DNA from: Roseimicrobium gellanilyticum
Lineage (GTDB): Bacteria > Verrucomicrobiota > Verrucomicrobiia > Verrucomicrobiales > Verrucomicrobiaceae
NCBI RefSeq assembly: GCF_003315205.1
Contig: NZ_QNRR01000001.1
Coordinates: 620,001-684,000 of the forward strand
Direction of reading: 5' to 3'
Length of the DNA: 64,000 nt
Part shown: piece after piece, positions 3 to 34,513 of the stretch
Layout: every line of letters starts with the position of its first letter
Position numbering within the stretch: the stretch's first letter is position 1
The notes under the pieces: model-generated
The model's input: the letters and a program-made list of their open reading frames with translations, nothing else
Databases searched by the model: none
What the model was told of the DNA's origin: nothing
Program-made: the position numbers and the translations under genes

Positions 3-3000
3 AACAGAATTGTCTTCCTGAATAGCGTGGCAGGCTTGGAACCGGGCATGGGAATCTCTGGTACAGGGATTCCGACAGATACCAAAATTGTGTCCGTGAA
101 TGCTGCCACGGGAGCGGTGCTGTTGAGCAAAGCTACGACTGCGGCGCCACCCGCCGTCGGCAGCAATTACAGCGTCTACGCACTGAGCAACACCATCACA
201 TTGTCCACGGTGCAAGGACTTCAGATCGGCATGGGCATCTCAGGAAATGGCATCCGGATAGGTACTGTCATCACTGCCATTGATCCTGTGACCAAGACGG
301 TGGTTCTGAGTGCGGCTACCAACGGGCCCATCAACGAAACAACGATCCAGACGGTGCCCATCCCGGCGGTGGCTTACAATGTGTCTGCGACTGCTGCGTC
401 CGGCTCCAACACACTCGTACTTTCCTCGGTGGCTGGCTTGTCCATTGGTGCCACGGTGAGCGGTACGGGCGTCCCGAACGGCACGGTCATCACCGCCATC
501 AATCCCGCGACCAACACCGTCACTCTCAGCCAGCCGATCAGTGCGCAAATTGCCGCTGCGGCGTCTGTGAACATCCGCAAGGTTTCCAACTTCTCCGAAA
601 CCCGTCTCTATCAGGCTGCGGGAGGTAAGTCAGACTTCCAGATGCGCTTCACGGACGATGGCGGATTTAGCCTGCAAAATGAAGTTGGAGCGTTGACCAA
701 AGTAGGGCGCGGTGTCGTAACACTGAGCGGCAGCACCGCTGGAGCGAGCGATCTGGATGGCGGGATCAACGTTCACGGAGGAACGCTGGAACTTCTGTAC
801 GGCCAGGCAAACACGAACAACTCCCGTGTGAACGGTGGAACTGCGGCCAACCCCTACCAGTTGACCCTGGCAGGTGGGGAACTCAAGATGTCGGCGCTAG
901 GCAACTCTTCCGTCGCACAAACGGTGAATGAGTCTTTCCGCGGTGTGTTCACACTTCGAGCGGGCAACTCCTCCATCAAGGCTGGGGCTAACAGTGAGTT
1001 TGCCACCATCGTTCTGAACTTGGGCCTGGACAATCCGTTCTCTGTCTTCATCTCGGAGCCTACGTCTGCTTCCTCAGCCATCCAGAATCCTGATTGGTAC
1101 TGGAGGGCTCCTGATCGTTTTGCAGGCGCTACGATTGCCTTCGATGGAACGCCTCTCACGTCCACGACCATCCGTTATTTGTATTCTCAGAATGCGCTCA
1201 ATGGCAACGGCTTCGCTGACAATGGGCTTCTGGGCTATTTCACCTCCATCCCGTATGCGACTTTCAAGGCTGGTTCTATTGGAAACCCCTCCTATGTGGA
1301 TTTCGCATCCTTCATTCCCGAATCCACCAGCAATCCAAATCTCAACAATACCGTCATCGGTGATTCCAGCGGTCTACTCGGGAACGTGCTCTTCAAGGAC
1401 TACGGTGGAGGCGGCACCTTTGCGTCGCAACTCGGAAGCTGGAGTTCGTATGTAAGTGCTGCGGGTGGCACTGAATACATGACCGATGCCCTTTTTGCGG
1501 GCTCGACCGGATTCACAGGAACGCTCAATGCCAACAGTGGGGGCAACTTCTATGGGGCGAAACTCATTCGATTTGCCGCCGCCGCTTCGAGTACCATCAA
1601 CATTGCTGCGGGCACCCGACTCGTCCTTGGCACCACCGCTCCCGGGGAAGGTGTTTTTGGTACGGCAGGCCTTTCCGTGCAGGACGGCGGAGCCATCCTG
1701 ATCTCCAATTCAGTTGGCGCTAATAACCAGGGGATTGAGGGTGGCGAGCTCACTTCCGCATTGCTGAGCACGTACTATACTCAGCCTCTCACAACCACGA
1801 CCGCTTCGGCGGCTGGTGGTACTGTCGGAGGGAATACCTTGGGCGTGGCTTCCGTAAGTGCGCTGAAAGTAGGCATGACTGTATCCGGCGCTGGCATTGT
1901 GCCTGGCAGCTATATCACAGACATCAATCGGGTGACGAATACCGTGACGCTCAATACGGGCCTGAGCGCGGCCGTGAGCAACGGAGCGGTTCTTGAGTTC
2001 CGCGACCTCCCACAATACCACGTGGCAAACTATTTCAGCAACACCAATGGTAACGCAACCGCCGGAACCACGACGCTCACGCTCCAATCCGTGGCTGACC
2101 TGGTGGTGGGAATGAGGATCTCCACAGATGCTGGTAACCTCTTTGCTCCAGGAACCACCATCATAGCGATCAATAAAGCAACAAATCAGATCACGTTGAG
2201 TTCCGGCACCCTTGCGGATGTCAACGACTTCACAGGCCTGCAGTTCGATCTGTTCGCGGCCCAGGCCCCCTCCATCCGCCCTGCGAATACCACGATATCA
2301 CTCAGCTATCCCGCACACGCTTCTACCTTCGATGCGCGGGACCTCATCATTCACAACTACAATGAGCAGGGTGTCTTCACGATCGGTTCACGTATCGTAG
2401 ACTTCACAGGAGCCCTTGATGGAGGGCCCTCCCGTCTCAACCTCGTCATTGGTGGTCCCGGGGTTACGCATCTGACGAATGCCACCAACAACTACACGGG
2501 CTCGACCTTTGTCAGCGGTGGAGGAACAGATGCCGCTGGTAACCTTCTGGTGGGTACGCTGTGGATTGCGAACGAAAACCGTCTGGGAGCCACGCCAGGC
2601 TCGGTCAATCCGGCATCGATCTTCCTGAACGGTGGGCGTCTGCGTTTTGACTCCGATGTCAGTGGTTCGTCCCTCGGGTCTGCACTCACTCTGCATCAGA
2701 ACCGGGGCATCACCTTGGGTGGCAACGGCGGCTACATTGACGTGTTCCATGCCGGCACGACCCTGACCTATGGTGGTGTCATTCGTTCAGAAGACAACAT
2801 CCAGATGGGCAATCTGGGTTCCAACCAGTACTATGGCAACATTGGTTCGGGCGACCTGATCAAGGAAGGAAATGGCCGGCTGATCCTGACCAATGACAAC
2901 AGTGTCGCGAATCTGATTGCTCCGATTTCCTCGGTTCCTTTCACTACCTGGAATGCGTACTTCGGCATCACGGATGTGAAGGCGGGTACGCTGCAGTTGA

Positions 3001-3770
3001 ACATTGGCAAAGCCAACTCCGGTATCTTGGGCAGCAATGATTCTACCATCGACGGCACGATTGTGAGAGCAGGCGCTCGCCTTGATCTCCAAATCACGGG
3101 TGGCTCGGCTCACGGCACGAAGGAATGGATCACCCTGGCTGGAGGCGTGCTGGGTACCACGGCGCTCCATACGGACGGTGCACTGGATGGCGTGATCAGC
3201 GTGACCGCGAACAGTGAGATCAATGTGGCCGCAGGCAACCTGCGCCTCAATGGCAGCTCCGGATTCCTGCAGGGCACGGGAACGATCACGAAGACCGGTA
3301 CTGGTTCACTGATGCTGTTTGAGAACAATTCTGACTTCAGCGGTGGGTGGGTCATCCAGGAGGGTTCCATCATAACCCGCAGCCAGGGACGTGTGACCGG
3401 CCAGGGTGGTTCCATTCTGATTGGCACCAGCGGAGCGGCAGCGGGCTTGGGTACCGCCGGTCTCTATCAACGCTCCCGCACCTCGGGAGGTGTGTTCACC
3501 ACGGAGTATAAGATCACGCAAAACATCGTGGTTAGGGCGGAATCCAGTGGCTCGCAGGTCAAGGAAATCGGGGTGCGCAATGATTTGAACGAATTTTCAA
3601 ATGTCACCGTCAACACCGTCTCCGGCAGCCCGGTCGTGACGGTATCAAGTGTGGCGAATCTGTTCACGGGGATGGTCACCCAGTCGGCCATCGCCGGCAT
3701 GCCCGCTGGCGCCATTATTCTGGCCATTGATCCGGCGACCAACAGGGTGACCTTCAACACCAATGCCACC
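3..3770 (+). repeat. Six copies of a ~48-residue coding repeat module
   Basis: Copies lie at about 3-152, 186-326, 402-542, 1819-1968, 2055-2210 and 3622-3770. Each encodes a V-x-S-V-x-x-L-x-x-G-M start, a G-T-x-I/V-x-x-I half and an A-T-N-x-V-T-L end. The first three are almost adjacent; the others are separated by unrelated beta-repeat sequence. Copies differ at many codons, so this is old duplication rather than recent expansion. Confidence 0.75.
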
Positions 3771-5720
3771 AGCACCGCGTCAGCAGCCGGCAACATCGGC
3801 TACAACAACAGTGGCATGAACAATGACCGGTACAGCTTCGCAGGAACGCTGACCCTCAATGACGATCTGCAGGTGGCCTACCGCGACAATGGCACCAATC
3901 CGGCACTCACTCCGACTGGTACCAATCCGGATGGGTCACAACGGACGGGCATCACCCGCATCATTGGGCTGGATGGAAATATCAGCGGCACCGGGAACCT
4001 CACCACGGTGGTGGATCTGGTCGGCGGCACGGCTACCGTGAACAGCATCTTTGAACTCAACGGCGAGAACTCCTCGTGGGTGGGTGATTTGACCATGGGT
4101 AACGCTGCAAGCCAGACCCGCATGCTGCACACCGTGCGTTTGGGAAGCAATACCGCCCTGAATGCTGCGAATGCGGTGACGCTGAGGAACAACAGCACCC
4201 TGCAGGTGGCTGGTCACACCGTTGAAATCGGCGACCTCTCCGTCAGTGTGACCGACGGCGGTGGAACTGTGGCGGTGGACAATGGTGCTGCGACCCGGGG
4301 TATCTTTATCGAGAATGCGTCCAACGACATCGCGACCCTCATCATCAATCAACTGGGTACCACCAATTGGGATGTCCATTTCCGTGATGGCACTACGCCC
4401 TCTATCTACAGTGCCTCCACTGCATTGGTGCACAGCAACAAACTGAACATCGTGAAGAGGGGTACTGGCGTGGGCATCATGACCCAAACCAACACCTATA
4501 CCGGTACCACCACCATTGAGAATGGCACGCTGCGTTCCGGTTCGAGCAATGTGCTTCCCGATGCGAGCCCCATCATCATCAATGCGACGGGAGCAGGAGT
4601 TACTGCCACGCTCGATCTGAACAACAACAATGATTCGATTGCCTCGCTGACGATGGGCGGGACCACGACCACCAGCACGCCGACTGTGCAAACGGGTACC
4701 GGCACTCTGACCCTGCTGGGCAATGTCACCTATGACGCTGCCAACAATCCGCAAGGTGGTACCATCAGCGGCAACCTTGCGCTGGGTGGAGCTTCACGCA
4801 CCTTCACGGTGGGTGACAGCACCACGGCCACGAACGATCTGACCGTGTCTGCCGTAGTGTCATCGGCTGGTACCGGTAGCATCGTCAAGACAGGTCTCGG
4901 TACGATGGTGCTCTCCGGCAACAATACCTACACGGGTACGACCACAGTCTCTCAAGGCCGGTTGCATGTGGGCGTTGGCGGTGGCGTTGGTTCTCGTGCC
5001 GCTGGTGATACCGGTGCGGCGGGAGCGAGTGCTACCACGGTCAGCGCGGGCGCTTTCTTGAGCGGTACCGGCACAGTCCAAGGTACAGCTTCCAGCACCG
5101 CTCATTCGATACAGGGCACTATTCAGCCTGGTAGCTGGAACGGTACGACCAGCGGCATTGGCAAACTCGACATCGTTGGCAATCTCAACGCCACGGGTGG
5201 TACGTTCGCACTCCAGCTCAGCGGCAATTCCATGAATGATGCCACCTTGGCGGGCTTCGTGGCCGGTTCCGCGGGCTACGACTCCCATGTCACCGCCCAG
5301 CTTGGCACTTACGAAGGTTCGGTCACCGGTATTGCGGGTGGCGCCAATCATGACTTCCTGAACATCTCGGGCAGTGTCACCTTGGACGGCAACACACGGA
5401 TTCAGGTGCAGACCGAGGGCAGCTACACCTATGCCGCAGGCGATATCTTTGACATCCTTGACTGGACGGGGCTGACGGCAGGTCTCTTTGATGTGGGCTC
5501 CATCACTGCCACCGGCAATGCACGCCTTCGCAGTGGGGGACTGAGTGGGGATCTGGAGTTGCCTACTCTTACCGGCAACCTTGTTTGGGACGTGCAAAAG
5601 CTCCTCTCGGACGGTATCCTGATTGTAGCCAACAACGTTCCAGAGCCCAGCAGGGCGATGCTTTTCGTGATCGGCTTCGCGGGAATGCTTCTGCGCCGTC
5701 GCAGGCCGACGAGGAAATAA
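3..5720 (+). CDS. Giant autotransporter-type beta-strand repeat protein with PEP-CTERM tail (5' end outside window)
   Basis: The frame is open from base 3 without a stop, and the residues before the first GTG (base 27) continue the repeat pattern, so the gene starts upstream of the window; 1905 residues are visible. Two repeat kinds alternate. One is a ~48-residue module (consensus like SSVAGLSIGxTVSGTGVP, then an xVITAINPATNTVTLS half) seen six times. The other is the Gly/Thr/Asn-rich autotransporter-associated beta-strand type, for example KTGLGTMVLSGNNTYTGTTT. The C terminus has VPEPS, a hydrophobic stretch and an RRRR tail, the PEP-CTERM signal processed by exosortase systems. No autotransporter translocator barrel is present. 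It is inferred to be a large exported surface protein, perhaps an adhesin or scaffold; ligand unknown. No exosortase gene lies in the window. Confidence 0.85.
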   Translation, partial: NRIVFLNSVAGLEPGMGISGTGIPTDTKIVSVNAATGAVLLSKATTAAPPAVGSNYSVYALSNTITLSTVQGLQIGMGISGNGIRIGTVITAIDPVTKTVVLSAATNGPINETTIQTVPIPAVAYNVSATAASGSNTLVLSSVAGLSIGATVSGTGVPNGTVITAINPATNTVTLSQPISAQIAAAASVNIRKVSNFSETRLYQAAGGKSDFQMRFTDDGGFSLQNEVGALTKVGRGVVTLSGSTAGASDLDGGINVHGGTLELLYGQANTNNSRVNGGTAANPYQLTLAGGELKMSALGNSSVAQTVNESFRGVFTLRAGNSSIKAGANSEFATIVLNLGLDNPFSVFISEPTSASSAIQNPDWYWRAPDRFAGATIAFDGTPLTSTTIRYLYSQNALNGNGFADNGLLGYFTSIPYATFKAGSIGNPSYVDFASFIPESTSNPNLNNTVIGDSSGLLGNVLFKDYGGGGTFASQLGSWSSYVSAAGGTEYMTDALFAGSTGFTGTLNANSGGNFYGAKLIRFAAAASSTINIAAGTRLVLGTTAPGEGVFGTAGLSVQDGGAILISNSVGANNQGIEGGELTSALLSTYYTQPLTTTTASAAGGTVGGNTLGVASVSALKVGMTVSGAGIVPGSYITDINRVTNTVTLNTGLSAAVSNGAVLEFRDLPQYHVANYFSNTNGNATAGTTTLTLQSVADLVVGMRISTDAGNLFAPGTTIIAINKATNQITLSSGTLADVNDFTGLQFDLFAAQAPSIRPANTTISLSYPAHASTFDARDLIIHNYNEQGVFTIGSRIVDFTGALDGGPSRLNLVIGGPGVTHLTNATNNYTGSTFVSGGGTDAAGNLLVGTLWIANENRLGATPGSVNPASIFLNGGRLRFDSDVSGSSLGSALTLHQNRGITLGGNGGYIDVFHAGTTLTYGGVIRSEDNIQMGNLGSNQYYGNIGSGDLIKEGNGRLILTNDNSVANLIAPISSVPFTTWNAYFGITDVKAGTLQLNIGKANSGILGSNDSTIDGTIVRAGARLDLQITGGSAHGTKEWITLAGGVLGTTALHTDGALDGVISVTANSEINVAAGNLRLNGSSGFLQGTGTITKTGTGSLMLFENNSDFSGGWVIQEGSIITRSQGRVTGQGGSILIGTSGAAAGLGTAGLYQRSRTSGGVFTTEYKITQNIVVRAESSGSQVKEIGVRNDLNEFSNVTVNTVSGSPVVTVSSVANLFTGMVTQSAIAGMPAGAIILAIDPATNRVTFNTNATSTASAAGNIGYNNSGMNNDRYSFAGTLTLNDDLQVAYRDNGTNPALTPTGTNPDGSQRTGITRIIGLDGNISGTGNLTTVVDLVGGTATVNSIFELNGENSSWVGDLTMGNAASQTRMLHTVRLGSNTALNAANAVTLRNNSTLQVAGHTVEIGDLSVSVTDGGGTVAVDNGAATRGIFIENASNDIATLIINQLGTTNWDVHFRDGTTPSIYSASTALVHSNKLNIVKRGTGVGIMTQTNTYTGTTTIENGTLRSGSSNVLPDASPIIINATGAGVTATLDLNNNNDSIASLTMGGTTTTSTPTVQTGTGTLTLLGNVTYDAANNPQGGTISGNLALGGASRTFTVGDSTTATNDLTVSAVVSSAGTGSIVKTGLGTMVLSGNNTYTGTTTVSQGRLHVGVGGGVGSRAAGDTGAAGASATTVSAGAFLSGTGTVQGTASSTAHSIQGTIQPGSWNGTTSGIGKLDIVGNLNATGGTFALQLSGNSMNDATLAGFVAGSAGYDSHVTAQLGTYEGSVTGIAGGANHDFLNISGSVTLDGNTRIQVQTEGSYTYAAGDIFDILDWTGLTAGLFDVGSITATGNARLRSGGLSGDLELPTLTGNLVWDVQKLLSDGILIVANNVPEPSRAMLFVIGFAGMLLRRRRPTRK

Positions 5721-5791: not shown

Positions 5792-5866
5792 TCCTGAGTA
5801 GCTCAGCGGTAGAGCGGGTGGCTGTTAACCACCATGTCGTAGGTTCGATCCCTACCTCAGGAGCCA
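5792..5866 (+). tRNA. tRNA-Asn (anticodon GTT)
   Basis: A complete cloverleaf can be drawn by eye. The acceptor stem TCCTGAG (5792-5798) pairs with CTCAGGA (5856-5862), followed by discriminator G and an encoded CCA (5864-5866). The D stem is GCTC/GAGC. The anticodon stem is GGTGG/CCACC with loop CTGTTAA and anticodon GTT at 5824-5826. The T stem is GTAGG/CCTAC with loop TTCGATC. It stands alone between the giant repeat gene and the ABC gene. Confidence 0.97.
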
Positions 5867-6126: not shown

Positions 6127-7869
6127 ATGACCGAGAAGAAGACATCCCTCAGAACTCAAGTGTTTCGCAGGCTGTTGCATGTGACGGCGATGTTTTTCAG
6201 ATCGCCGGTCGGCGGACGCGCCTGGTTGCTGGCCGCGGCTCTGCTGGTGCTGATGCTGTGTATCAACGGCATGAATGTGCTGAACAGCTTTGTGGGCCGG
6301 GACTTCATGTCGTCCATAGAAGCCAAGGACCGGTCGGGGTTTGTTCGTTACGCCTGGATGTATGCGGGCGTTTTTGCCACTACAACGATTGTCGCGGTCT
6401 TCTTCCGCTTTGTGGAGGAGCGTCTGGGCTTGCTCTGGCGTGACTGGCTCACCCATCGGGTCGTCCGCACCTACATGGACGAGCGCATCTATCTGCATCT
6501 CGATGCAGAAGGGATCACCAATCCCGACCAGCGCATGACAGAGGACATCAGGCAACTGACCACGACCACGCTGTCCTTCCTCTTGATGATTCTGAACGGA
6601 ACGATGACCGCGATCTCGTTCTCCGGGGTCCTGTGGACCATCAGCCCGACGTTGTTTATGGTCGCGGTCCTGTATGCCATTGCGGGATCGACGCTGACCA
6701 TTCTCCTTGGGCGTCCGCTCATCCGGCTGAACTACCAGCAAGCGGACTACGAGGCGAACTTCCGCTCTGAGTTGATCCATGTCCGCGAGAACGCTGACGG
6801 AATCGCACTCACCGCCAACCAGAACACCATCCGGGAGCGGCTGATGGGTCGCATCGATCAATTGGTCACAAATTTCCGCCGCATCACAGCGGTGAACAGG
6901 AATCTTGGTTTCTTTACCACGGGGTACAATTACATGATCCAGTTGATTCCCACACTTCTGGTGGCTCCGCTCTTCATGAATGAGGGGGTCGACTTCGGTG
7001 TGATTGGGCAGTCCGCCATGGCCTTTGCCACGCTGGTGGCGGCCTTCTCACTCGTGGTCACCCAGTTCCAGGCCATCTCCGCCTATGCTTCTGTTGTTAC
7101 CCGACTTGGTGAATTTGTGGACGCTTCCGAAAGGGCGGCCATGCAATCCGATACTCCCGCCATCGAGTGCCTGGAGGGTGTGGAAGGGATCAAATATTCG
7201 AGCCTCGACCTGCAGTCGGCAGACAAATCGGGGAATGTCATTCTCGGAGACTTGAACGCGCTCATCGTTCCGGGCAGGAGCCTGCTGGTGCATGGTGCGA
7301 ATCAGGCGGCCAGGGTCGCCTTCTTCCGGGCGTCTGCGGGCATCCACAGTACAGGCTCTGGCACCATTGCGCGGCCGCCGGAGGAGATGCTGGCCTTTCT
7401 CCCAGAGCAACCGTACTTACCTGCTGGCACTGCACGGGAAGTCCTTGTCCCATCAGGCAAGGAGCAGGAAATCACGAACCGGGAGCTACAACAGCTCTTT
7501 GCAGAGATCGGGCTGGCGTCTTCCAAGTTCAGGACGCCTGAGGATTTTGAAATCCCCCGTGACTGGCACGACGCGCTGTCACTTTCCAAACAGCAGTTGA
7601 TGTCTGTGGCTCGTGTCCTTTTGGCCAGACCCAAGTTTGTGTTTCTGGATAATCTTGGATCCGTACTGAGCACGCACGCGCAAAACAATGTCCTCGCGGT
7701 TCTGGCGAAGCGGGGCATTACCAGCATCTCCATTGGAGAAGAGGATCCGGATCCCACCCTCTATGACACGAGCCTGGAGCTGAGGGAGGACGGCTCGTGG
7801 AAATGGACGGACCTGAAGCAGGGCGCCGCGCCGACGGGCATACCAGGACAAAGCAATCTCGCATCATGA
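6127..7869 (+). CDS. SbmA/BacA/YddA-type ABC half-transporter with degenerate nucleotide-binding domain
   Basis: The protein has 580 residues. The N-terminal ~320 residues form a six-helix membrane domain like SbmA/BacA and YddA proteins (GRDFMSSIEAKD, RWRDWLTHR-like segment). The C-terminal ~230 residues align with an ABC ATPase domain by eye, but every catalytic motif is altered. Walker A reads GANQAARV (390-397), with no P-loop glycine pattern and R in place of K. The signature is LSLSKQQ (484-490) instead of LSxGEQQ. Walker B ends FLDN, with N509 for the catalytic E. The H-loop reads GEE, with E538 for H. The frame is intact over its full length, so this looks like a retained pseudo-ATPase rather than a decaying gene. 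It overlaps the following GH94-type gene by ATGA, indicating co-translation. Confidence 0.85.
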   Translation: MTEKKTSLRTQVFRRLLHVTAMFFRSPVGGRAWLLAAALLVLMLCINGMNVLNSFVGRDFMSSIEAKDRSGFVRYAWMYAGVFATTTIVAVFFRFVEERLGLLWRDWLTHRVVRTYMDERIYLHLDAEGITNPDQRMTEDIRQLTTTTLSFLLMILNGTMTAISFSGVLWTISPTLFMVAVLYAIAGSTLTILLGRPLIRLNYQQADYEANFRSELIHVRENADGIALTANQNTIRERLMGRIDQLVTNFRRITAVNRNLGFFTTGYNYMIQLIPTLLVAPLFMNEGVDFGVIGQSAMAFATLVAAFSLVVTQFQAISAYASVVTRLGEFVDASERAAMQSDTPAIECLEGVEGIKYSSLDLQSADKSGNVILGDLNALIVPGRSLLVHGANQAARVAFFRASAGIHSTGSGTIARPPEEMLAFLPEQPYLPAGTAREVLVPSGKEQEITNRELQQLFAEIGLASSKFRTPEDFEIPRDWHDALSLSKQQLMSVARVLLARPKFVFLDNLGSVLSTHAQNNVLAVLAKRGITSISIGEEDPDPTLYDTSLELREDGSWKWTDLKQGAAPTGIPGQSNLAS

Positions 7870-10800
7870 CACCAACGCCATCATCCGTGACTTTTCCCTT
7901 CCGTGCCGCGAGTCCCTCCGGGCTGAGTGTCGAGCTGAATGCGAATGGCTCCATCCGGCGAATCGATCACGGAGACATCATGATCAATCTGTTTCTCGGG
8001 AACGAAGCTGAGGGCGGTCCCGCAAACATCTTCTTGAGGTTGCATGGCGAGAGCACCACAGTGATTCCGCTGATTGGTCCGTGCAGCTCTGCCTCCTACC
8101 GGTTTGAAGAGCGGGGCATGACTGCAAGTGGCAGATGGGGAGATCTGACTTTTCGGCTGCGTCTCGTGCTGGCGGAGTCGTCACCAGCCTGGTTCTGGCA
8201 CGTGGAAGTGGAGAATCACGGGATGAAGGAGGTGGCCTGCGACCTGGTGTACGTGCAGGACATTGCCCTCGCTCACTATGGCGCCATCCGTCTCAATGAA
8301 TATTATGTGAGCCAGTATCTGGACCACACGGCGTTGGATCACGCATCAAAGGGCGTGGCGGTGGCTTCGCGGCAGAACCAGTCCATGGGGGGACGCTGCC
8401 CGTGGACTGTCATTGGGTCACTGGGATGGGGCGTGTCCTACGCCACCGATGCATTGCAGTCCTACGGATTCAGCAGGCGCACGGGGGCTGAACTTGCGGG
8501 ACTGGCTGCCGATCTTCCTGGCAAGCGTTTGCAACATGAGCACTCCATGGTGGGCATCCAGGACGAGCGCTTTGTACTTCAGCCTGGAGCGAATGCCAGA
8601 CGGGGATTCTTTTCCTGGTTTGAATCAAACAAGTCCGAGGCTACATCACCCAAAGACCGCCGGTTCATCGAGTCGGCATTGACATTGCCGGAATCAGCTT
8701 GCCCGCCTTGGCCCGCAGATGCGACAGACTCGATGCCTGCGTGCGGACTCTTCGCTTCGGCTCCATTCTTGGAAGCGGTTGAACTCGCCGAGGATGACAT
8801 CAATGCGTTCGTCGGCCCGGAACGTCGTGATGCAGAATATGACCGTGGACACCTGCTCTCCTTCTTCACCGGGAAGCACAGCCATGTGGTGCTCAAGCGC
8901 AAAGAACTCCAGGTGCTTCGCCCGCATGGACATTTGCTGCGAACCGGCGGCGTATTGACTCCTGATGAGTCTGCCCTGGCCTCGACTGCATGGATGGGAG
9001 GCGTGTTTCACTCGATGGTCACGCAGGGCCACGTGAGCATCAATCGCTTCCTCTCCACCTGCCACACCTACCTGGGACTCTTCCGCAGCCATGGACAGCG
9101 CATCTTCATCGAATTGGAAGGGGAATGGGTTTTGCTGGGAGTGCCTTCCGCCTTTGAGATGAGACCTGGCTTCTGCCGCTGGTGGTACAAGCATCGCGCA
9201 GGAGTGGTTGAAGTGACGTCCGTTGCGCCAGATGATCGGCATGAACTCCTCCTTTCAGTGACCGTCCTCGCAGGGGCCCCCGCGAGGTTGCTGATTTCAC
9301 ACCACATCGCCATGAATGGCGATGACGGAAGCTCTTCGGTATCGGCTCAATACAAGGTGAAAGACCGTGCTGCATTCGTGCGCGCGATTCCGGAGAGTGA
9401 TGTGGGGCGCCGTTTCCCCGAAGGTGAGTTTGTCATCAAGCCCTCGCAGGGCACGCAGGTGGAAGGCATCGGAGGTGATGAGATGCTCTTTGCAGATGGC
9501 GTGTCGCGTAAACAGCCGTTCCTGTGTTTCGCAACCGCTCCTGCACTCTCCGTGGCGTTCAGCATCGAGGGCCGTCTGGTGCCGGAGTCTCATGAACATG
9601 GTGGAGGCTTCTGGGACTCTATTGGAGCCGGCCTGAAGATTGAGGCCCCTTCTGCAGGGGAGCATGCTGCACGAGCGAGCCAGCTGGCGGAGATCTTTCC
9701 CTGGTTCATTCACAATGCGCTGGTGCACTACCTTTCACCGCGTGGATTGGAACAGTATTCCGGAGGAGGGTGGGGGACGCGGGACGTTTGCCAGGGACCG
9801 GTGGAACTGCTTCTGGCACTCGGACGATTCGAGCCGGTGAGAGATCTGCTCTGCCGTGTGTTCCGTCAGCAGAACGCAGATGGTGACTGGCCACAGTGGT
9901 TCATGTTTTTTGACCGTGAGCGCGGTATTCGTCCGGGAGATTCACACGGTGATATCGTGTACTGGCCGTTGGTGGCTCTCGCGCAGTACCTGTCTGCCAC
10001 CGGTGATGCTGATCTGTTGGAGGAGCGCCTTCCATTTTTCCATCCTGAAGGCGATGTTGCGGCGGAGACCTGCACCGTGGCTGGTCATGTGGAACGCGCA
10101 TTGGATTTGATCCAACGCAGAGTCATTCCCGGCACGAGGCTTGCGGCCTATGGACACGGTGACTGGAACGACTCCCTCCAGCCTGCCAAGCCTGATATGC
10201 GCGAACGCCTCTGCAGTGCGTGGACTGTGACTTTGAATTATCAAACGCTCGTCGCCCTTGCCAATGCCTTCAGGACGCTCGGAGACACAGTACGGGCGAA
10301 GGAGTTTGAAGCGATGGCCTCCGCGGTGCTCGATGAATTCCAGCACACGCTCATCGTGGACGATGTCGTGGCCGGCCTGGCGTATTTCCATGAGGGCGGC
10401 AGGACAGACTATCTGCTTCACCCTGGTGACGAGGCGACGGGCTTGTCGTACAGCCTCCTGCCGATGATCCACGCGATTATCAATGACATGTTTGCGCCAC
10501 AGCAGGCGGCGGCTCATCTTGAGCTGATTCGCAGGCATCTCCTGGGCCCTGATGGTGCGCATCTATTTGATCGCCCGCTGGCTTACCGTGGTGGTATCCA
10601 GACGTATTTCCAGCGTGCTGAAAGCGCCAGCTACTTCGGCCGTGAAATCGGCATCATGTACACGCATGCCCACCTGCGCTATTGCGAAGCGCTCGCCCGG
10701 TATGGTGATGCAGAGGCGTTCTTCCATGCCCTGTGCCAGGCCAATCCCATTGCCATCCGGCAGATTGTTCCCTCCGCCGGGTTGCGACAGGCGAACTGCT

Positions 10801-11237
10801 ACTACTCCAGCTCGGATCCTGCCTTCGCGGATCGCTATGAGGCGTTTGAGCATTACGAGAAGGTGAATCTCGGCGAGGTAGCACTGGAGGGCGGCTGGAG
10901 GGTTTATTCCAGTGGGGCTGGTATTGCCACGCGCTTGATCATGCAGTGCTTCCTCGGCATTCGCGTGGAGAAGAATTCGATGGTAGTGGATGCTGTGATG
11001 CCCGCTTCTTTGGACGGGCTGCAGGCAAGACTGCAATTGTATGGTCGCTCCTTGGTGGTGCTCTATCGCGTGGGGAGTAAGGGCTGCGGGGTGATGTCCG
11101 TGGAGGTGAATGGAACCGTGTTGGACTTCACTCGTGAGCCAAATCCCTACCGTCCGGGAGCTGTCCGCATTCCGCTTGGTTCGTTCACCAGTCAACTGAC
11201 GGGAGATGGTGACAGGCTGGCCATCGTGCTAGGCTAG
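7866..11237 (+). CDS. GH94-type glycoside phosphorylase (NdvB/cellobiose phosphorylase-like)
   Basis: The protein has 1123 residues with no signal peptide. The ATG at 7866 overlaps the ABC gene stop (ATGA), which is why it is preferred over an earlier in-frame start at 7797. N-terminal beta-rich domains precede an (alpha/alpha)6 barrel with YSGGGWGTRD near residues 632-641 and GHGDWND at 763-769; the latter motif carries the general-acid Asp in GH94 phosphorylases. The length resembles 1,2-beta-oligoglucan phosphorylases more than the ~800-residue cellobiose enzymes. GH94 enzymes cleave or make beta-glucosidic bonds with phosphate or glucose 1-phosphate, usually in the cytosol. The substrate here is not determinable by eye. 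The coupled ABC gene suggests transport or sensing of the same glycan (inference). Confidence 0.82.
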   Translation: MTPTPSSVTFPFRAASPSGLSVELNANGSIRRIDHGDIMINLFLGNEAEGGPANIFLRLHGESTTVIPLIGPCSSASYRFEERGMTASGRWGDLTFRLRLVLAESSPAWFWHVEVENHGMKEVACDLVYVQDIALAHYGAIRLNEYYVSQYLDHTALDHASKGVAVASRQNQSMGGRCPWTVIGSLGWGVSYATDALQSYGFSRRTGAELAGLAADLPGKRLQHEHSMVGIQDERFVLQPGANARRGFFSWFESNKSEATSPKDRRFIESALTLPESACPPWPADATDSMPACGLFASAPFLEAVELAEDDINAFVGPERRDAEYDRGHLLSFFTGKHSHVVLKRKELQVLRPHGHLLRTGGVLTPDESALASTAWMGGVFHSMVTQGHVSINRFLSTCHTYLGLFRSHGQRIFIELEGEWVLLGVPSAFEMRPGFCRWWYKHRAGVVEVTSVAPDDRHELLLSVTVLAGAPARLLISHHIAMNGDDGSSSVSAQYKVKDRAAFVRAIPESDVGRRFPEGEFVIKPSQGTQVEGIGGDEMLFADGVSRKQPFLCFATAPALSVAFSIEGRLVPESHEHGGGFWDSIGAGLKIEAPSAGEHAARASQLAEIFPWFIHNALVHYLSPRGLEQYSGGGWGTRDVCQGPVELLLALGRFEPVRDLLCRVFRQQNADGDWPQWFMFFDRERGIRPGDSHGDIVYWPLVALAQYLSATGDADLLEERLPFFHPEGDVAAETCTVAGHVERALDLIQRRVIPGTRLAAYGHGDWNDSLQPAKPDMRERLCSAWTVTLNYQTLVALANAFRTLGDTVRAKEFEAMASAVLDEFQHTLIVDDVVAGLAYFHEGGRTDYLLHPGDEATGLSYSLLPMIHAIINDMFAPQQAAAHLELIRRHLLGPDGAHLFDRPLAYRGGIQTYFQRAESASYFGREIGIMYTHAHLRYCEALARYGDAEAFFHALCQANPIAIRQIVPSAGLRQANCYYSSSDPAFADRYEAFEHYEKVNLGEVALEGGWRVYSSGAGIATRLIMQCFLGIRVEKNSMVVDAVMPASLDGLQARLQLYGRSLVVLYRVGSKGCGVMSVEVNGTVLDFTREPNPYRPGAVRIPLGSFTSQLTGDGDRLAIVLG

Positions 11238-14200
11238 CACCGTGCTGGAACCAAGTTGCAGCTCTGCCACGAAGGGCAGAGCCGTGACGCGGACAATTGT
11301 CGCGCCGCTCTCGTATGGCTGCTTTGCGCCATCGGCTGTCACTGAGGCGATGATCTGTTTCCCGATGGGCAACGGTGGTGCGATGAACAACCCACCCGGC
11401 GGCATCGTGAGTGAGCCACGAATCTCCACATAGATGGCATCATCGTTTCGAGTCGCGATGCAGAATGCCAGGTCACCAAATCGCGTGGGGAGACCTTGCA
11501 CAGCGAATCCATCCTCCTGTGAAATCCACGCCCAGGGCATGCCGGCGGCGAGCACCAGAGAGGCAGTGGCTTCACGCTCGGAGGCTACCATGGATGCTAC
11601 TGCCAGCAGATATTCCGCAGCAATCCAAGTGTGAGGCACATCGCCAAGGTGGCCGGGTGAACGCGGATCACGCCACGTGATTTCCGGCCATTGATTCCAC
11701 TCCAGCGGACGGCGATCCGACAGGAAGAAGGTCAGCAGTTCGTTTGCCTCATCGCGCCGGCCCAACCGCACGAATGCGCCGATGATGCGGATCTCGTAGG
11801 CGGTGTAGTTGTTCCACGGCATTTCACCGCGATGCTTGCGGTGGAATCCGTCGATGTAGGTGTCCAGCATCGCGTGAAGGGGCTCACGAGGCAAGGCATC
11901 CGCAAAGTCCAGCATGGCAATCGCATTGGACGTCGCGGTGGGGTCGAAGTCCGCCCACTCCACCGAACCGGGGATGTACGCGAGACTCTTTTCTGCAATG
12001 ACCTTCTGAAGCGAGTGTGCGATGTCTTCCTGGAATGCTGCCGCCTCATGCCGCCACCGTGTGGCGTCTGCAGGTTGTCCCGCTTGTTCTGCTAGATCTG
12101 CCGCTGCCTCAAGTCCACGCACTCCCCAGAAGTCATCCCAGTAGGAGTGCACGGGGTGGGCGAGGTAGCCTTCATGGCTTGCGGACTCCGGCAGCAGGCC
12201 ATAGCAGGCGGCGAGATCTCCGGACTTGTATTGCGTCGTCTGCCGTTCAGACCGAATCGTGATGAGATAGTCTGCGGCCTTGCGGATGTGAGGCAGCATA
12301 CGTTGCAGGAAGCCGGGATCAGCGGCGTTGCGGAAGTCTTCCCGCAAACCCCACAGGAATTGTCCGTGGCTGTCGTGCTCCACCAACCAGTCGACACCGT
12401 CGCGGTCCACCACACAGGGCACAAAGCCGTCTTCGCGCTGGAAGGGAGCATACCATTCCAGAAACACGCGAAGGGCTTGTGGAAGCCCGGCCTTGGCCAG
12501 GGCCGCACCCATGATCACACAATCACGGACCCATGAGCGGGTATAGCGTCGCGGACCTGGCTGGATGGCAGGACCATCGCGATTGATCAAGATGTGTCCC
12601 GCGGCTGTGCGGAAACAATCAAAGACCATGCGCGTGTTCTCCGGCGCCTGCCAGGTCACTTTCCCCAATGTCTGACGCCAGTCCTCCACTGCGCGTGCGT
12701 AGGCATCCGTGCCGGCTGGGTTGGCCTTGTCGAAATAAGGGAAGGACACCGTGGCTTCGAGCACGGTCCCGCCGGTGGGGAAGTCCCATACCATCGCTCC
12801 ACCGATGTGCCCGCCTTCATCGCAGGCCAGCCGCCTTGGTGGCACTACACCTGCCTGGAGAAAGGAAGTCACGCCTCCTTCTTCGAAGCTGGCGGCTCCC
12901 ATTTCAGTGGGATGGGGAGTGCAGTTGAGAGGCCGGCCATCCACTCGCATGTCACCGCCGGTGCAGTCGATCTCATAGATCGGGCTCATGCCACCCAAAT
13001 TGCGGAATGCCTGCCACGGGGGATTCACCTGAAAGGGACGCACGGCGACGACCAGGCGGGTGCCTGGCTCCGCAGCGGGGCACTGCAGACGGTAGGTGAC
13101 GTGGAGAGTCAGAGTCTCTCTGTGGCCATCCACCCATGGCTGGATTTCGAGGCGCATTTCCCGGGCAGACCACGCTACGGCTGGCACGGGCACGCCGTCG
13201 GCGGCCATGGACAGTGAGGTATCGGCGTCAGCCCAGGAGAGCATGCCGTCCTGGGTGAGGATGAAGGGCTCCAGGGAAAAGCCCGCTTCATCCGTCTCCA
13301 CCATGCCCTCTTCATTGACCAAGGCACGGCGTCTTCCTTCGGGACTGCCAATGGGGGTCCAGTAGGATTGCTCCCGGTACCAGTAGCGTGGGAACATGCC
13401 GCGCGGGCATTCTGCGGCGACGTGATGGACAAACTCATTCGGTGTGCGTGAGAATGCGTCCGGCCTGAGCGAGACAGATTGGAGCGCCGCACAGGCGGAG
13501 TCCTTGAAGATGAGCCGCAGTTGGCTCGCCTCACTTCCGGGCATGGAGATGAAACTCCTGGCCCCCAGACCTGAGGTGGCCCGGTAGATGGAAGTCCAGC
13601 TTTCTCCATCGGTAGAGACTTCAACCCGATACGCCCTCGGTGGAAGTGAGTCTGGCCATGAGAGGACCAGCCCGCCGAAGCGTACTGGCTTGCCAAAGTC
13701 GATCCTGCACCACGGTTCTTTGTCTTCCGTACCCGCGCGCCAGATGGCCTGGGCATCTGCGTCCCAGATGTTGTCCGGAGCGTGCCCGGGCAGATGACTG
13801 GAGGCGCGGATCGACTTCGGTGCCAGGAGCGTCTGATCCGTCATGGAAGGACAAGAGAGCTCCAGTGTGCCCTTTCCTCCCGGTCCGGCGGCGATGGCAA
13901 TCTCGATCGCCTCGACATTGGATGGAGCGCCGCCTCCCGCAGGTCCCCAAGCGAAGGGGAACTCGCGTTCATTGAAACGGTAGTCCGTCCACTGCGATGG
14001 CAGTGCGAAATCCTGCCGCAGATGCCGCCACACATTGGCTCCTCCATCAGCAGCCACCTTGAATTCAAAATGGTTGGGCGGGCCGCTTCCGCGCAAACGG
14101 AAGCCGATGTCAAAGGTAGTGGGGAGGCTGAAAGAAAACGTGCGTCTTAGCACGACGAAGCCGCCGCCGCCGTGAAAGTCATAGTCCAGACGCAGGACGG

Positions 14201-14312
14201 TGGCGCCCTGCTCTGTACGAGGGGTGGAGAGTTCTCCTCTCGCCTGTCCAGAGGCAACGACTTGCCAGGAGCCAGCATCATCAAACAGGGAAAAGAACGG
14301 ATGTTCAGGCAT
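11229..14312 (-). CDS. F5/8C (discoidin) plus (alpha/alpha)6-barrel glycosidase-like protein
   Basis: The protein has 1027 residues. Residues ~1-160 form a beta-sandwich resembling a carbohydrate-binding module. Residues ~170-280 look like an F5/8 type C domain (ASSHLPGHAPDNIWDADAQ start, YRVEVSTDGESW core). The C-terminal ~450 residues form a helical barrel similar to GH15/GH63/amylo-1,6-glucosidase folds (RSWVRDCVIMGAAL, VEHDSHGQFLWGL, YWDDFWG, PWNNYTAYEI). There is no signal peptide at the chosen start, which is unusual for a discoidin-type protein, so it may be cytosolic or exported by another route. The gene converges on the GH94-type gene with a 9-base tail overlap. A role in the same glycan pathway is inferred; specificity unknown. 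Confidence 0.7.
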   Translation of the reverse strand: MPEHPFFSLFDDAGSWQVVASGQARGELSTPRTEQGATVLRLDYDFHGGGGFVVLRRTFSFSLPTTFDIGFRLRGSGPPNHFEFKVAADGGANVWRHLRQDFALPSQWTDYRFNEREFPFAWGPAGGGAPSNVEAIEIAIAAGPGGKGTLELSCPSMTDQTLLAPKSIRASSHLPGHAPDNIWDADAQAIWRAGTEDKEPWCRIDFGKPVRFGGLVLSWPDSLPPRAYRVEVSTDGESWTSIYRATSGLGARSFISMPGSEASQLRLIFKDSACAALQSVSLRPDAFSRTPNEFVHHVAAECPRGMFPRYWYREQSYWTPIGSPEGRRRALVNEEGMVETDEAGFSLEPFILTQDGMLSWADADTSLSMAADGVPVPAVAWSAREMRLEIQPWVDGHRETLTLHVTYRLQCPAAEPGTRLVVAVRPFQVNPPWQAFRNLGGMSPIYEIDCTGGDMRVDGRPLNCTPHPTEMGAASFEEGGVTSFLQAGVVPPRRLACDEGGHIGGAMVWDFPTGGTVLEATVSFPYFDKANPAGTDAYARAVEDWRQTLGKVTWQAPENTRMVFDCFRTAAGHILINRDGPAIQPGPRRYTRSWVRDCVIMGAALAKAGLPQALRVFLEWYAPFQREDGFVPCVVDRDGVDWLVEHDSHGQFLWGLREDFRNAADPGFLQRMLPHIRKAADYLITIRSERQTTQYKSGDLAACYGLLPESASHEGYLAHPVHSYWDDFWGVRGLEAAADLAEQAGQPADATRWRHEAAAFQEDIAHSLQKVIAEKSLAYIPGSVEWADFDPTATSNAIAMLDFADALPREPLHAMLDTYIDGFHRKHRGEMPWNNYTAYEIRIIGAFVRLGRRDEANELLTFFLSDRRPLEWNQWPEITWRDPRSPGHLGDVPHTWIAAEYLLAVASMVASEREATASLVLAAGMPWAWISQEDGFAVQGLPTRFGDLAFCIATRNDDAIYVEIRGSLTMPPGGLFIAPPLPIGKQIIASVTADGAKQPYESGATIVRVTALPFVAELQLGSSTVLA

Positions 14313-17759: not shown

Positions 17760-19202
17760 ATGGAATCATCCCAACCTCGCAGCTTGCGCGAGCGCCTTTT
17801 CGCGCCGGTGGACATTGCGTTTCTGGTGTTTTTCCGGCTGGGGTTTGCGGGCATCATGCTGTGGGAGGTGTACCGCTATTTCAGCCTGGGTCGCATCAAG
17901 CCGTACTACGTCGATCCCGGTTTTCACTTCAAATACTATGGCTTCGAATGGATCGAGCCGTGGCCGGGAGAGGGGATGTACTGGCATTTCACAGCCATGG
18001 CTGTGTTCGCCACGTGTATGCTGGTTGGCTTCTGCTACCGGTTGGCGGCGTTTCTTTTTGCCTGTGCGTTTACCTTCGTCTTCTTGCAGGACCAGGCGCA
18101 CTACCTGAACCACTTTTATCTGGTCTGCCTCATCTCCTTCCTCATGGTGCTGCTGCCGGCCAACTGTGCGTGGTCGATTGATGCATGGATGCGCCCACGC
18201 CTGCGCTCACAAGTCGTACCGGCATGGACGCTGTGGCTGCTGCGGGTGCAGATTGGCATTGTGTATTTCTACGGAGGGCTGGCCAAGCTGGGGCCGGACT
18301 GGTTGCAAGGCGAGCCCATGCGCATGTGGCTGGCGGATCGAGCCAGCAAGTTTCCGCGGATTGAGCACTATTTTTCCGAGGAGTGGTTCGTCTACGGCTT
18401 TGCGTACGGTGGCCTGCTCTTCGATTTGCTGGTGGTGCCGCTGCTCCTGTGGAGGCCCACACGTTGGATTGGCTATCTGTGGGCGCTTTCATTCCACCTC
18501 ATCAACAACCAGCTTTTCAACATTGGCATCTTCCCGTGGTTCATGCTGTGCGCCACACTCATCTACCTGCCGCCGGACTTTCCGAAACGCATCTGGGGTT
18601 TCCTGAGGGGAAAAAAATGGCAACCGCAGGCAGAGGCCTTGTCTCCGGTGGGGGCAGCGGCCACGGCAGGTTCATGGTCTTTTGGGCAGCGGGTGCTGGT
18701 GTCGTTTCTCGGGCTGTATCTGGTAGCCCAGTGTCTCATACCATTCCGCCATCTGCTGTATCCCGGTGATGTGAACTGGACGGAAGAAGGGCACCGTTTT
18801 TCCTGGCGCATGAAGCTCCGTGGCAAGGATGGAGAGGTTGTTTTCAAGGTGGTGCAGAAAGGTACTGGCAGATTCTGGGAGTTTGACCCCGAGGGCAATC
18901 TCACAAAGAAGCAGGTGGACGAGATGGCCGGGCGTCCGGACATGATCCTGCAGTTTGCCCATCACCTGGCGTGGGCCATGAGTGAGCGCGGATATGGCGA
19001 TGTGGCCGTGTATGCCAAAGCCATGGTCTCGCTAAACGGACGTGAGCCGGAACTGCTCGTCGATCCGATGGTGGATCTGGCACAGGTGAGGCGAAGCCTG
19101 GCGCACTCCACCTGGATCCTTCCGCTACAGGGGAAGTTGCGCAAACCGCAGATCCATCATGAGGAAGATGATTCACATCATCATCATGTGACTGCGGAGT
19201 AG
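17760..19202 (+). CDS. HTTM-domain membrane protein (vitamin K-dependent gamma-carboxylase homologue)
   Basis: The protein has 480 residues and several membrane helices over ~1-290. The segment YFYGGLAKLGPDWLQGEPM (around 165-190) matches the gamma-carboxylase family core (human GGCX has GIKKLDADW). The second Lys of that motif, the proposed catalytic base, is kept here as K176. A soluble C-terminal part (~300-465) follows and ends in an acidic/His-rich tail (EEDDSHHHH). Family members use reduced quinone to deprotonate substrates or drive epoxidation; the bacterial physiological substrates are mostly unknown. It lies downstream of the secreted Cys-rich gene on the same strand and converges with an Ig-like protein gene. 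Confidence 0.85.
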   Translation: MESSQPRSLRERLFAPVDIAFLVFFRLGFAGIMLWEVYRYFSLGRIKPYYVDPGFHFKYYGFEWIEPWPGEGMYWHFTAMAVFATCMLVGFCYRLAAFLFACAFTFVFLQDQAHYLNHFYLVCLISFLMVLLPANCAWSIDAWMRPRLRSQVVPAWTLWLLRVQIGIVYFYGGLAKLGPDWLQGEPMRMWLADRASKFPRIEHYFSEEWFVYGFAYGGLLFDLLVVPLLLWRPTRWIGYLWALSFHLINNQLFNIGIFPWFMLCATLIYLPPDFPKRIWGFLRGKKWQPQAEALSPVGAAATAGSWSFGQRVLVSFLGLYLVAQCLIPFRHLLYPGDVNWTEEGHRFSWRMKLRGKDGEVVFKVVQKGTGRFWEFDPEGNLTKKQVDEMAGRPDMILQFAHHLAWAMSERGYGDVAVYAKAMVSLNGREPELLVDPMVDLAQVRRSLAHSTWILPLQGKLRKPQIHHEEDDSHHHHVTAE

Positions 19203-31578: not shown

Positions 31579-33378
<1,800 letters not shown>

Positions 33379-33515
33379 CGGCGCGGAGCGGGAAAAGGGG
33401 GTAAGGGAGGTACACCTGTTTGCCGCCATGCGCAAGCAGTGTGGCGGAGCCCATTTCCCGCCGCGAAGTGTCTCAGCGTGTGGAAATCCACCCCGCAGGA
33501 CCTGTTCATGCGTAT

Positions 33516-33523
33516 ACCTAGGT
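33516..33523. promoter_or_regulatory. ACCTAGGT palindrome upstream of aldolase gene
   Basis: This 8-bp palindrome lies 66-73 bp before the aldolase start, a distance similar to the CCTAGG sites before the ABC and DUF4239 genes. The flanks match the longer consensus less well. Confidence 0.25.
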
Positions 33524-33588
33524 GAAACACGTTGCGCTTTACATGGGGGGCATTCTCCACCATGTCTGCTGCCCCCGAATTCTGACTC

Positions 33589-34383
33589 ATGAGCCGCCAA
33601 GAAAATCTCGATACCTTCTTCCGCGACGGCAAGACCGTCATCCTTCCCATTGACCATGGCGTGGCCATTCCAGTGCCAGAGCTGAGCAACCCTTTCCAGC
33701 TCATCGAGGATGTGAACCCCTATGTGGACGGCTATGTGCTGAATCTGGGCCTGGCTTTGCGTACCGGCGACCTGCTCACGGGCAAGGGTATCTGCCTCCG
33801 CACGGACGTGTACAATACCCGCATCACCGGTCGCGGCGCAGGCAGCATCAATGTGTACGGCCTCGGCGAGGCGGAAATGGTGGGCGCCACGGCGGTGATG
33901 AACATGCTCTACCCCGGAGCGGAAAACGAAGAGACCGTGACCCAGAATTGTGCGGACCTCATCAGTGAGAGCCTCGACGTGGATCTGCCCGTGATTCTTG
34001 AGACGCTCCCGGTCGGTCTCGGCCAGCGCGAGCACTACACGGTGGAGAAGATTGGCTTTGCCGTGCGCCTCGCGGCGGAACTCGGCGCGGACGTCATCAA
34101 GACGGCCTACCCGGTGAATGGTACCTCGGACGACTTCAAGCGCATCGTGGAGAACGCTTTTGGTGTGCCAGTGATTGTGCTCGGCGGCGCAGCGATGAAC
34201 AGCGACCTCGACCTGCTCTCCATGGTGCATGACGCCATGAAGGCCGGCGCGGTGGGCATCGCCATCGGTCGCAATGTGTGGCAGCACAAGTCCCCGGTCG
34301 CCATTGCACGCAGCCTTTCGGCCATTGTGCATGAAGGCGCGAAGGTGGAAGAGGCGCTCACCCTGCTGAAGGAGCCGATCTAA
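33589..34383 (+). CDS. Class I fructose-bisphosphate aldolase (DhnA/LsrF type)
   Basis: The protein has 264 residues. This is the archaeal/DhnA-type class I aldolase fold: [11 protein letters not shown] near the start, [10 protein letters not shown] with the Schiff-base Lys K171, VIVLGGA and [13 protein letters not shown] as the C-terminal phosphate-binding strands. It cleaves or forms fructose 1,6-bisphosphate in glycolysis/gluconeogenesis; LsrF-type thiolases share the fold, so the exact substrate needs a test. Divergent from lepA across 210 bp. Confidence 0.87.
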
Positions 34384-34513
34384 GGAGAACGGCTGGGCCG
34401 AGCCCGGTCTGCCGGATCTGGATTTTCTGTCCAAAACCGGCCGCGAACGGACGTATAGCACGGGGCAGAAATTGTATATGCCCTTGAGGGCATATTATCA
34501 TTTTCCATCATTC

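Follow-up and report, generated by a model that had tools for sequence, protein, structure and literature searches.

Eroded ATPase motifs in a Verrucomicrobiales clade of ABC half-transporters and a possible route to ATP-independent oligosaccharide carriers

The 64-kb window analyzed here, a stretch of 64,000 nucleotides from Roseimicrobium gellanilyticum, encodes a half-transporter of the ABCD/SbmA type whose nucleotide-binding domain (NBD) is full-length, predicted to keep its fold and maintained by selection despite the loss of its ATPase motifs. The loss extends across a whole clade, within which some members have discarded the domain, with relaxed conservation at the presumed coupling helix, and the clade is linked to GH94 enzymes both through shared operons and through its distribution among genomes. 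Set beside canonical paralogues, these proteins incline us, by a small degree, to see in the Verrucomicrobiales a living series from an ABC transporter to a secondary, SbmA-like carrier, passing from a canonical NBD through a dead but selected NBD to no NBD at all, with the coupling helices relaxing last. Such a series would have arisen independently of SbmA/BacA, would serve sugars rather than peptides, and would constitute a new type of ATP-independent oligosaccharide carrier.

The transporter and its eroded ATPase site

The gene and its landmarks are as follows.

6127..7869, + strand: ABCD/SbmA-type half-transporter gene, transmembrane domain (TMD) plus pseudo-NBD, a single open frame of 580 aa
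6127..7146, + strand: TMD, residues 1-340, the sole portion left in NBD-less relatives
6745..6753, + strand: D207 and E209, the latter the equivalent of SbmA ladder residue E276 by alignment
6787..6816, + strand: putative coupling helix 2 region, residues 221-230, RENADGIAL-like, with a short separate helix at 223-229 in the AF2 model
7162..7812, + strand: pseudo-NBD, residues 346-562, from TIGR00954, AF2 and a structural match to the ComA NBD
7294..7317, + strand: eroded Walker A, GANQAARV, residues 390-397
7405..7407, + strand: E427 in place of the Q-loop Gln, as in 46 of 49 relatives
7576..7596, + strand: eroded signature, LSLSKQQ, residues 484-490
7651..7653, + strand: N509 (LDN) in place of the Walker B catalytic Glu; 48 of 49 relatives have R, H or N here
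7738..7740, + strand: H-loop His replaced by E538 (SIGEE), never H in 49 relatives

The product matches PF06472 (E 3.5e-37, 128.7 bits against a curated cut-off of 24.4) and, more weakly, the SbmA/BacA family PF05992 (E 2.6e-13, 50.6 bits against 24), and its best solved full-length match, which also ranks first in Foldseek, is Rv1819c (6tqe, E 1.4e-54). An ABC NBD fold at the C-terminus is evident from the TIGR00954 profile, which covers residues 350-559, and from AF2 and VIA-align matches across 350-569; Pfam ABC_tran gave no match at E<=0.001. All strands and helices are present in the AF2 model of the pseudo-NBD (pLDDT ~90), which aligns with the ComA NBD (3vx4) at Z 20.4 over 215 residues with an rmsd of 3.5, and the structure searches returned no noteworthy matches outside ABC proteins. 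The original prediction, which had read the four altered motifs (Walker A, signature, LDN at N509 and GEE at E538) and a frame that stays intact and full-length without them, proved correct on both counts upon translation of 6127-7869.

Across the clade, the residue set of a functional ABC ATPase, comprising the Walker A GxxGxGK(S/T), the Q-loop Gln, the signature, the Walker B Glu and the H-loop His, is no longer found. Among the 49 full-length members, the Q-loop Gln and the H-loop His are absent without exception, the GK glycine of the P-loop is replaced in all but one, and the S/T that follows it is gone nearly everywhere; the Walker B Glu is lost in 48 and survives in a single member, L081. 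The Walker A lysine position, R396 in the window protein, is K in 35 and R in 11, the Walker B Asp D508 is invariant (49/49), and the signature is weakly eroded in many relatives (LSIGEQH). The claim that each key ATPase residue is replaced holds for the window protein and only in part for its relatives, where the lysine is mostly K and the signature often near-canonical, and it overlooked the loss of the Q-loop Gln. Nor do the relatives carry identical substitutions, a check that had been proposed: the loss is common to them but the replacements mostly are not (Walker B E to R, H or N), except for Q427E, which no other change in the clade matches for uniformity. The segments around the ATP site now vary, and Walker A, with an entropy of 2.0 bits versus 0.38, is among the least conserved stretches. 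Sister-group paralogues, in comparison, retain every canonical ATPase residue in 22 of 22 cases, and, judged from this alignment, the motif loss is far from chance. Orthologues with normal motifs, which would have argued for a local artefact, are absent, all 49 being degenerate.

The pseudo-NBD is nevertheless maintained, as its dN/dS lies between 0.06 and 0.22 over 11 pairs, below 1 as the original prediction had expected. The ratio of NBD dN to TMD dN spans 0.8-5.3 in these pairs (mostly 1.3-5, median ~1.6) against about 0.7-1.6 in 6 canonical pairs, from which we conclude that constraint on the NBD is lowered but far from absent. Where this constraint resides is suggested by the segment past the Q-loop (F-x-P-E-x-P-Y-L-P), which is strongly conserved in the clade, the E of Q427E included. 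In ABC exporters, the post-Q-loop segment is situated where a groove takes up the coupling helix, and thus the pattern fits an NBD retained for its contact with the membrane domain. Residues 221-230, to which ABC exporter anatomy would assign the role of coupling helix 2, have a mean identity of.99 among canonical paralogues,.63 among the pseudo-NBD relatives nearest the window protein, and.29 among NBD-less members, although most membrane helices are equally conserved in NBD-less members and others. By this measure, the constraint on the NBD contact vanishes along with the NBD. The original prediction had left open a structural or a regulatory role for the domain; these observations may favor the structural one.

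Three states within the Verrucomicrobiales and their order

Genome searches (57 near, 388 phylum-wide and 387 order-wide) recovered three states of the protein: canonical paralogues with 33-39% identity to the window protein, the pseudo-NBD clade with 43-85% identity, spread over several families of Verrucomicrobiales, and 11 TMD-only relatives in which the match ends near residue 340, with about 60-69% identity up to there. In the TMD-only relatives, a stop codon directly follows the TMD, and at eight of the loci (L103, L105, L106 and L108-L112, of which L105 and L106 lie on the same contigs as L079 and L078, respectively) a GH94 gene begins immediately behind that stop, leaving no space for an NBD, so that the domain is truly gone. 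Three genomes of one genus (G361, G492 and G570) hold the TMD-only form and no other member at E<=1e-30, indicating that it works unaided by the NBD of a paralogue. At L107, the stop is visible and the downstream gene lies beyond the contig edge; L113, cut by a contig edge, was excluded from the groups, and an NBD-less contig in G150, a genome of another family, was not counted, as the contig ends nearby and is possibly mis-binned.

Some relatives depart from these states. In L101 (2130-3850, G641), an apparent frameshift separates the TMD from the NBD of a pseudo-NBD relative, which is either an intermediate in decay or the product of faulty assembly. Its sister in the tree is L081, which alone in the clade has a Walker B Glu. 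A fragment in the complete 8.22-Mb genome G012 (L026/L155), which is homologous to residues 67-165 at 40% identity and contains a stop codon, is possibly the remnant of a paralogue, the genome otherwise holding only the pseudo-NBD form. The internal stops that L003, L004 and L014 seemed to have in the genome search proved to be ordinary C-terminal stop codons.

In a maximum-likelihood tree of 92 TMDs, all 61 pseudo-NBD, NBD-less and frameshifted rows form one group (support 100/100), within which the NBD-less rows are nested in clades supported at 100/99, 98/96 and 98/90; the window protein joins them in a fork (98/96), and L081/L101 and L004/L005 are adjacent to them. A tree constrained to separate full-length from NBD-less rows is worse by 41 log units (p-AU 0.018, all TMD columns), a result that weakens to p-AU 0.07 once the coupling-helix columns are removed, while a single loss of the NBD is not rejected (p-AU 0.595). 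The nesting and the AU tests together place erosion first and domain loss later: on this tree, the ATP site would have eroded once, at the base of the clade, and the NBD would then have been lost in one branch, once or possibly twice. The idea that the protein is an intermediate with a retained NBD thereby gains support from the uniform degeneracy of the 49 members, the low dN/dS, the complete AF2 fold and the 11 nested NBD-less relatives. The intermediate belongs to a separate lineage, that of the Verrucomicrobiales, which runs parallel to SbmA and is not ancestral to it.

Gene neighborhood, proposed mechanism and its rivals

The genes that follow the transporter bear on its substrate.

7866..7869, + strand: ATGA overlap in the sequence, the phosphorylase start lying within the transporter stop
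7866..11237, + strand: predicted SOGP-type GH94 1,2-beta-oligoglucan phosphorylase, 1123 aa (PF21958, PF21250, PF21270, PF17167; 5h3z)
11229..14312, - strand: 1027-aa protein with an F5/8 type C (CBM32-like) domain, a homologue of which recurs beside the clade

The 7866..11237 product has the SOGP_N, SOGP_2nd and SOGP_4th domains, matches LpSOGP over its full length (5h3z, E 3.7e-179) and keeps the catalytic Asp segment (GDWND aligned to GDWDD of 5h3z); no signal peptide was evident by eye. On these features, it is a putative 1,2-beta-oligoglucan phosphorylase with predicted activity on sophoro-oligosaccharides. The 1027-aa protein, for which Pfam and PDB sequence searches recognized no catalytic family, is probably a glycosidase and could represent a new glycosidase family. 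Elsewhere in the window are a protein with HTTM and vitamin K-dependent gamma-carboxylase lumenal domains (17760-19202, + strand; PF05090, PF22777), here in a bacterium; a 1897-aa protein with PATR repeats and a PEP-CTERM-like C-terminus (27-5720, + strand), followed by tRNA-Asn at 5792-5866; and a LepA frame (31579-34461, - strand) in which ~360 aa precede the GTPase domain, probably because the open frame was called too long.

Other clade members adjoin a different GH94 type with two GH94 supersandwich domains and/or the 1027-aa homologue, and the SOGP-type neighbor, its gene order conserved, also stands behind most NBD-less forms. Overall, a GH94-like gene or the 1027-aa homologue lies within 600 bp at 24 of 43 clade loci versus 0 of 20 canonical loci; the remaining 19 clade loci (about 40%) have no GH94 or related neighbor, and hence the link to a substrate may hold for only part of the clade. 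Of the 387 genomes of the order, 34 carry SOGP_N, and 32 of these hold a clade member, which makes 32 of 56 clade genomes versus 2 of 331 others (Fisher 3e-29, for related genomes whose counts are not phylogenetically independent).

Considering these lines of evidence, we propose, at a probability of roughly 0.6, an ATP-independent homodimeric transporter that descends from a canonical ABCD/YddA-type ancestor and imports beta-1,2-gluco-oligosaccharide, with its NBD as a brace. The clade would have abandoned the ATP use of its ATP-driven forebears, the TMD still carrying out alternating access without ATP, while the folded pseudo-NBD, presumably incapable of hydrolysis and probably of productive ATP binding, would hold the coupling helices in place. 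One branch would then have dropped the brace, and its carriers, reduced to the TMD, would resemble SbmA in architecture. What is transported is probably a gluco-oligosaccharide with beta-1,2 linkages, which would enter the cytosol and there be cleaved by the co-translated SOGP phosphorylase. An ion gradient would most likely drive this import, of protons by analogy to SbmA, with conserved acids in the membrane, E139, D207 and E209 among them, as candidates for the coupling; alternatively, downhill facilitation may be pulled by phosphorolysis, making ion coupling unneeded. The SbmA glutamate ladder, considered as proof of proton coupling, was found unsupported: E193, E203, E269, E276, E287 and E378 of SbmA correspond to E, L, N, E, R and A in the window protein (at ~20% identity, columns may be off), and the two acidic positions, E139 and E209, are acidic in ATP-driven paralogues as well. 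A search for clade-specific conserved acids yielded D207 only, which is invariant in 60 of 60 pseudo-NBD and NBD-less members and is Q or E in canonical paralogues; as a coupling residue, it is suggestive and no more.

The domain could be a nucleotide sensor instead of a brace, binding nucleotide without hydrolysing it and gating a facilitator through which intracellular phosphorolysis pulls downhill transport. A TAP D-loop mutant reported as a nucleotide-gated facilitator provides the precedent (PMC7756269), and the phosphorylase of the same operon would trap the substrate. Some residual nucleotide binding is conceivable from the Walker A residue that is still K or R in 46 of 49 members and from the universal Walker B Asp, but the P-loop glycine and S/T, ligands of phosphate and Mg, are missing from nearly all of them, Walker A conservation is among the lowest, and the NBD-less relatives do without any sensor, leaving this reading unlikely. 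Were the window protein to pair as the inactive partner with a canonical ABC half-transporter, as in the heterodimers TAP or TM287/288, the complex would still be ATP-driven. Such an arrangement, for which 19 of 56 clade genomes do have a canonical paralogue, strikes us as very improbable, since the other 37 show none at E<=1e-30; PF06472 has just one member in the genome from which the window comes, and therefore no canonical partner of this kind is present there; the two genes, where both exist, occupy separate loci; and NBD-less members are unable to build an ATP site with a partner. Degenerate halves, moreover, normally retain Walker A for ATP binding (PMC7756269).

The substrate and direction of transport invite their own alternatives, in which the phosphorylase is incidental and the transporter exports, for instance, a glucan made by reverse phosphorolysis, or carries unrelated cargo such as cobalamin or peptides in the manner of Rv1819c. 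Both Rv1819c and SbmA are promiscuous, mycobacterial BacA is reported to transport both ways (PMC10960864), and 19 of 43 loci have no neighbor of the GH94 or related kind. We hold this to be doubtful in view of the tight ATGA overlap, the gene order kept behind most NBD-less forms, the presence of the clade in 32 of 34 SOGP genomes, and the SOGP cluster of Listeria innocua, whose canonical ABC importer has been proposed to take up these oligosaccharides (PMC3960220). Finally, a decaying pseudogene or sequencing error has hardly any chance of being correct: one relative, L101, does carry a frameshift between TMD and NBD, but the frame is open in every other full-length relative, dN/dS is well below 1, and the same eroded state recurs in 49 members from many species, a degree of conservation that refutes it.

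Known systems and significance for the family

How ABC transporters gave rise to the SbmA/BacA carriers is a matter of debate. One study, from 2026, reports that SbmA has lost its coupling helices, names YddA and BclA as proposed ancestors, and envisages a YddA-like TMD that became separated from its NBD (PMC13316013). The portions available of that study and of a 2025 distribution survey describe only gene splits and make no mention of a catalytically dead NBD (PMC13316013, PMC12003926). YddA and BclA are full-length TMD-NBD half-transporters of the same superfamily as the window protein, but YddA retains the Walker A KGYSGAGKT, LDE and the H-loop MVTHQ, which the window protein does not. Rv1819c, the BacA of Mycobacterium tuberculosis, likewise shares with it the ABCD-type homodimeric half-transporter layout, TMD followed by NBD, yet is ATP-driven, in contrast to a protein with every ATPase motif eroded. 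SbmA/BacA (SLiPT), whose family PF05992 also matches the window protein TMD, is an ABC-derived carrier that does not use ATP and is linked to peptides, unlike this clade with its sugar phosphorylase. SbmA has no NBD, whereas the window protein keeps a pseudo-NBD and it is 11 of its relatives that have none; these are TMD-only like SbmA, and their AF2 model, a poor one (pLDDT 62, 11 sequences) whose details were set aside, matches solved SbmA structures among ABCD-type ones. The window protein also has no TM0 helices and lacks four of the six ladder glutamates, as befits a separate lineage.

ABC transporters in which one of the sites has degenerated are familiar (PMC7756269). TAP, TM287/288, CFTR and ABCB11 all retain an NBD without the Walker B Glu and the H-loop His, but they keep one canonical site per dimer and, in the degenerate half, Walker A, whereas the present protein, a presumed homodimer, would have two dead sites and has lost Walker A. 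In the open-licence literature, we found no homodimeric ABC protein with two dead sites, a weak negative. The Listeria innocua cluster lin1838-1843 resembles the window locus in placing an SOGP beside a transporter and differs in its canonical ABC importer (lin1841-1843) and GH3 enzyme (PMC3960220). While the fold and superfamily are already known, a homodimer that appears to have both sites dead, and the evolutionary series to which it belongs, would be new.

For the family, the clade supplies the missing stages, homologues of each occurring within one bacterial order and in a constant gene neighborhood, and the question of how an ABC transporter becomes a carrier is now testable across canonical, pseudo-NBD and NBD-less members. 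The label "ABC transporter ATP-binding protein" would be incorrect for genes of the latter two kinds. For the organisms that carry it, the clade suggests which transporter may serve the SOGP pathway in the use of beta-1,2-glucan.
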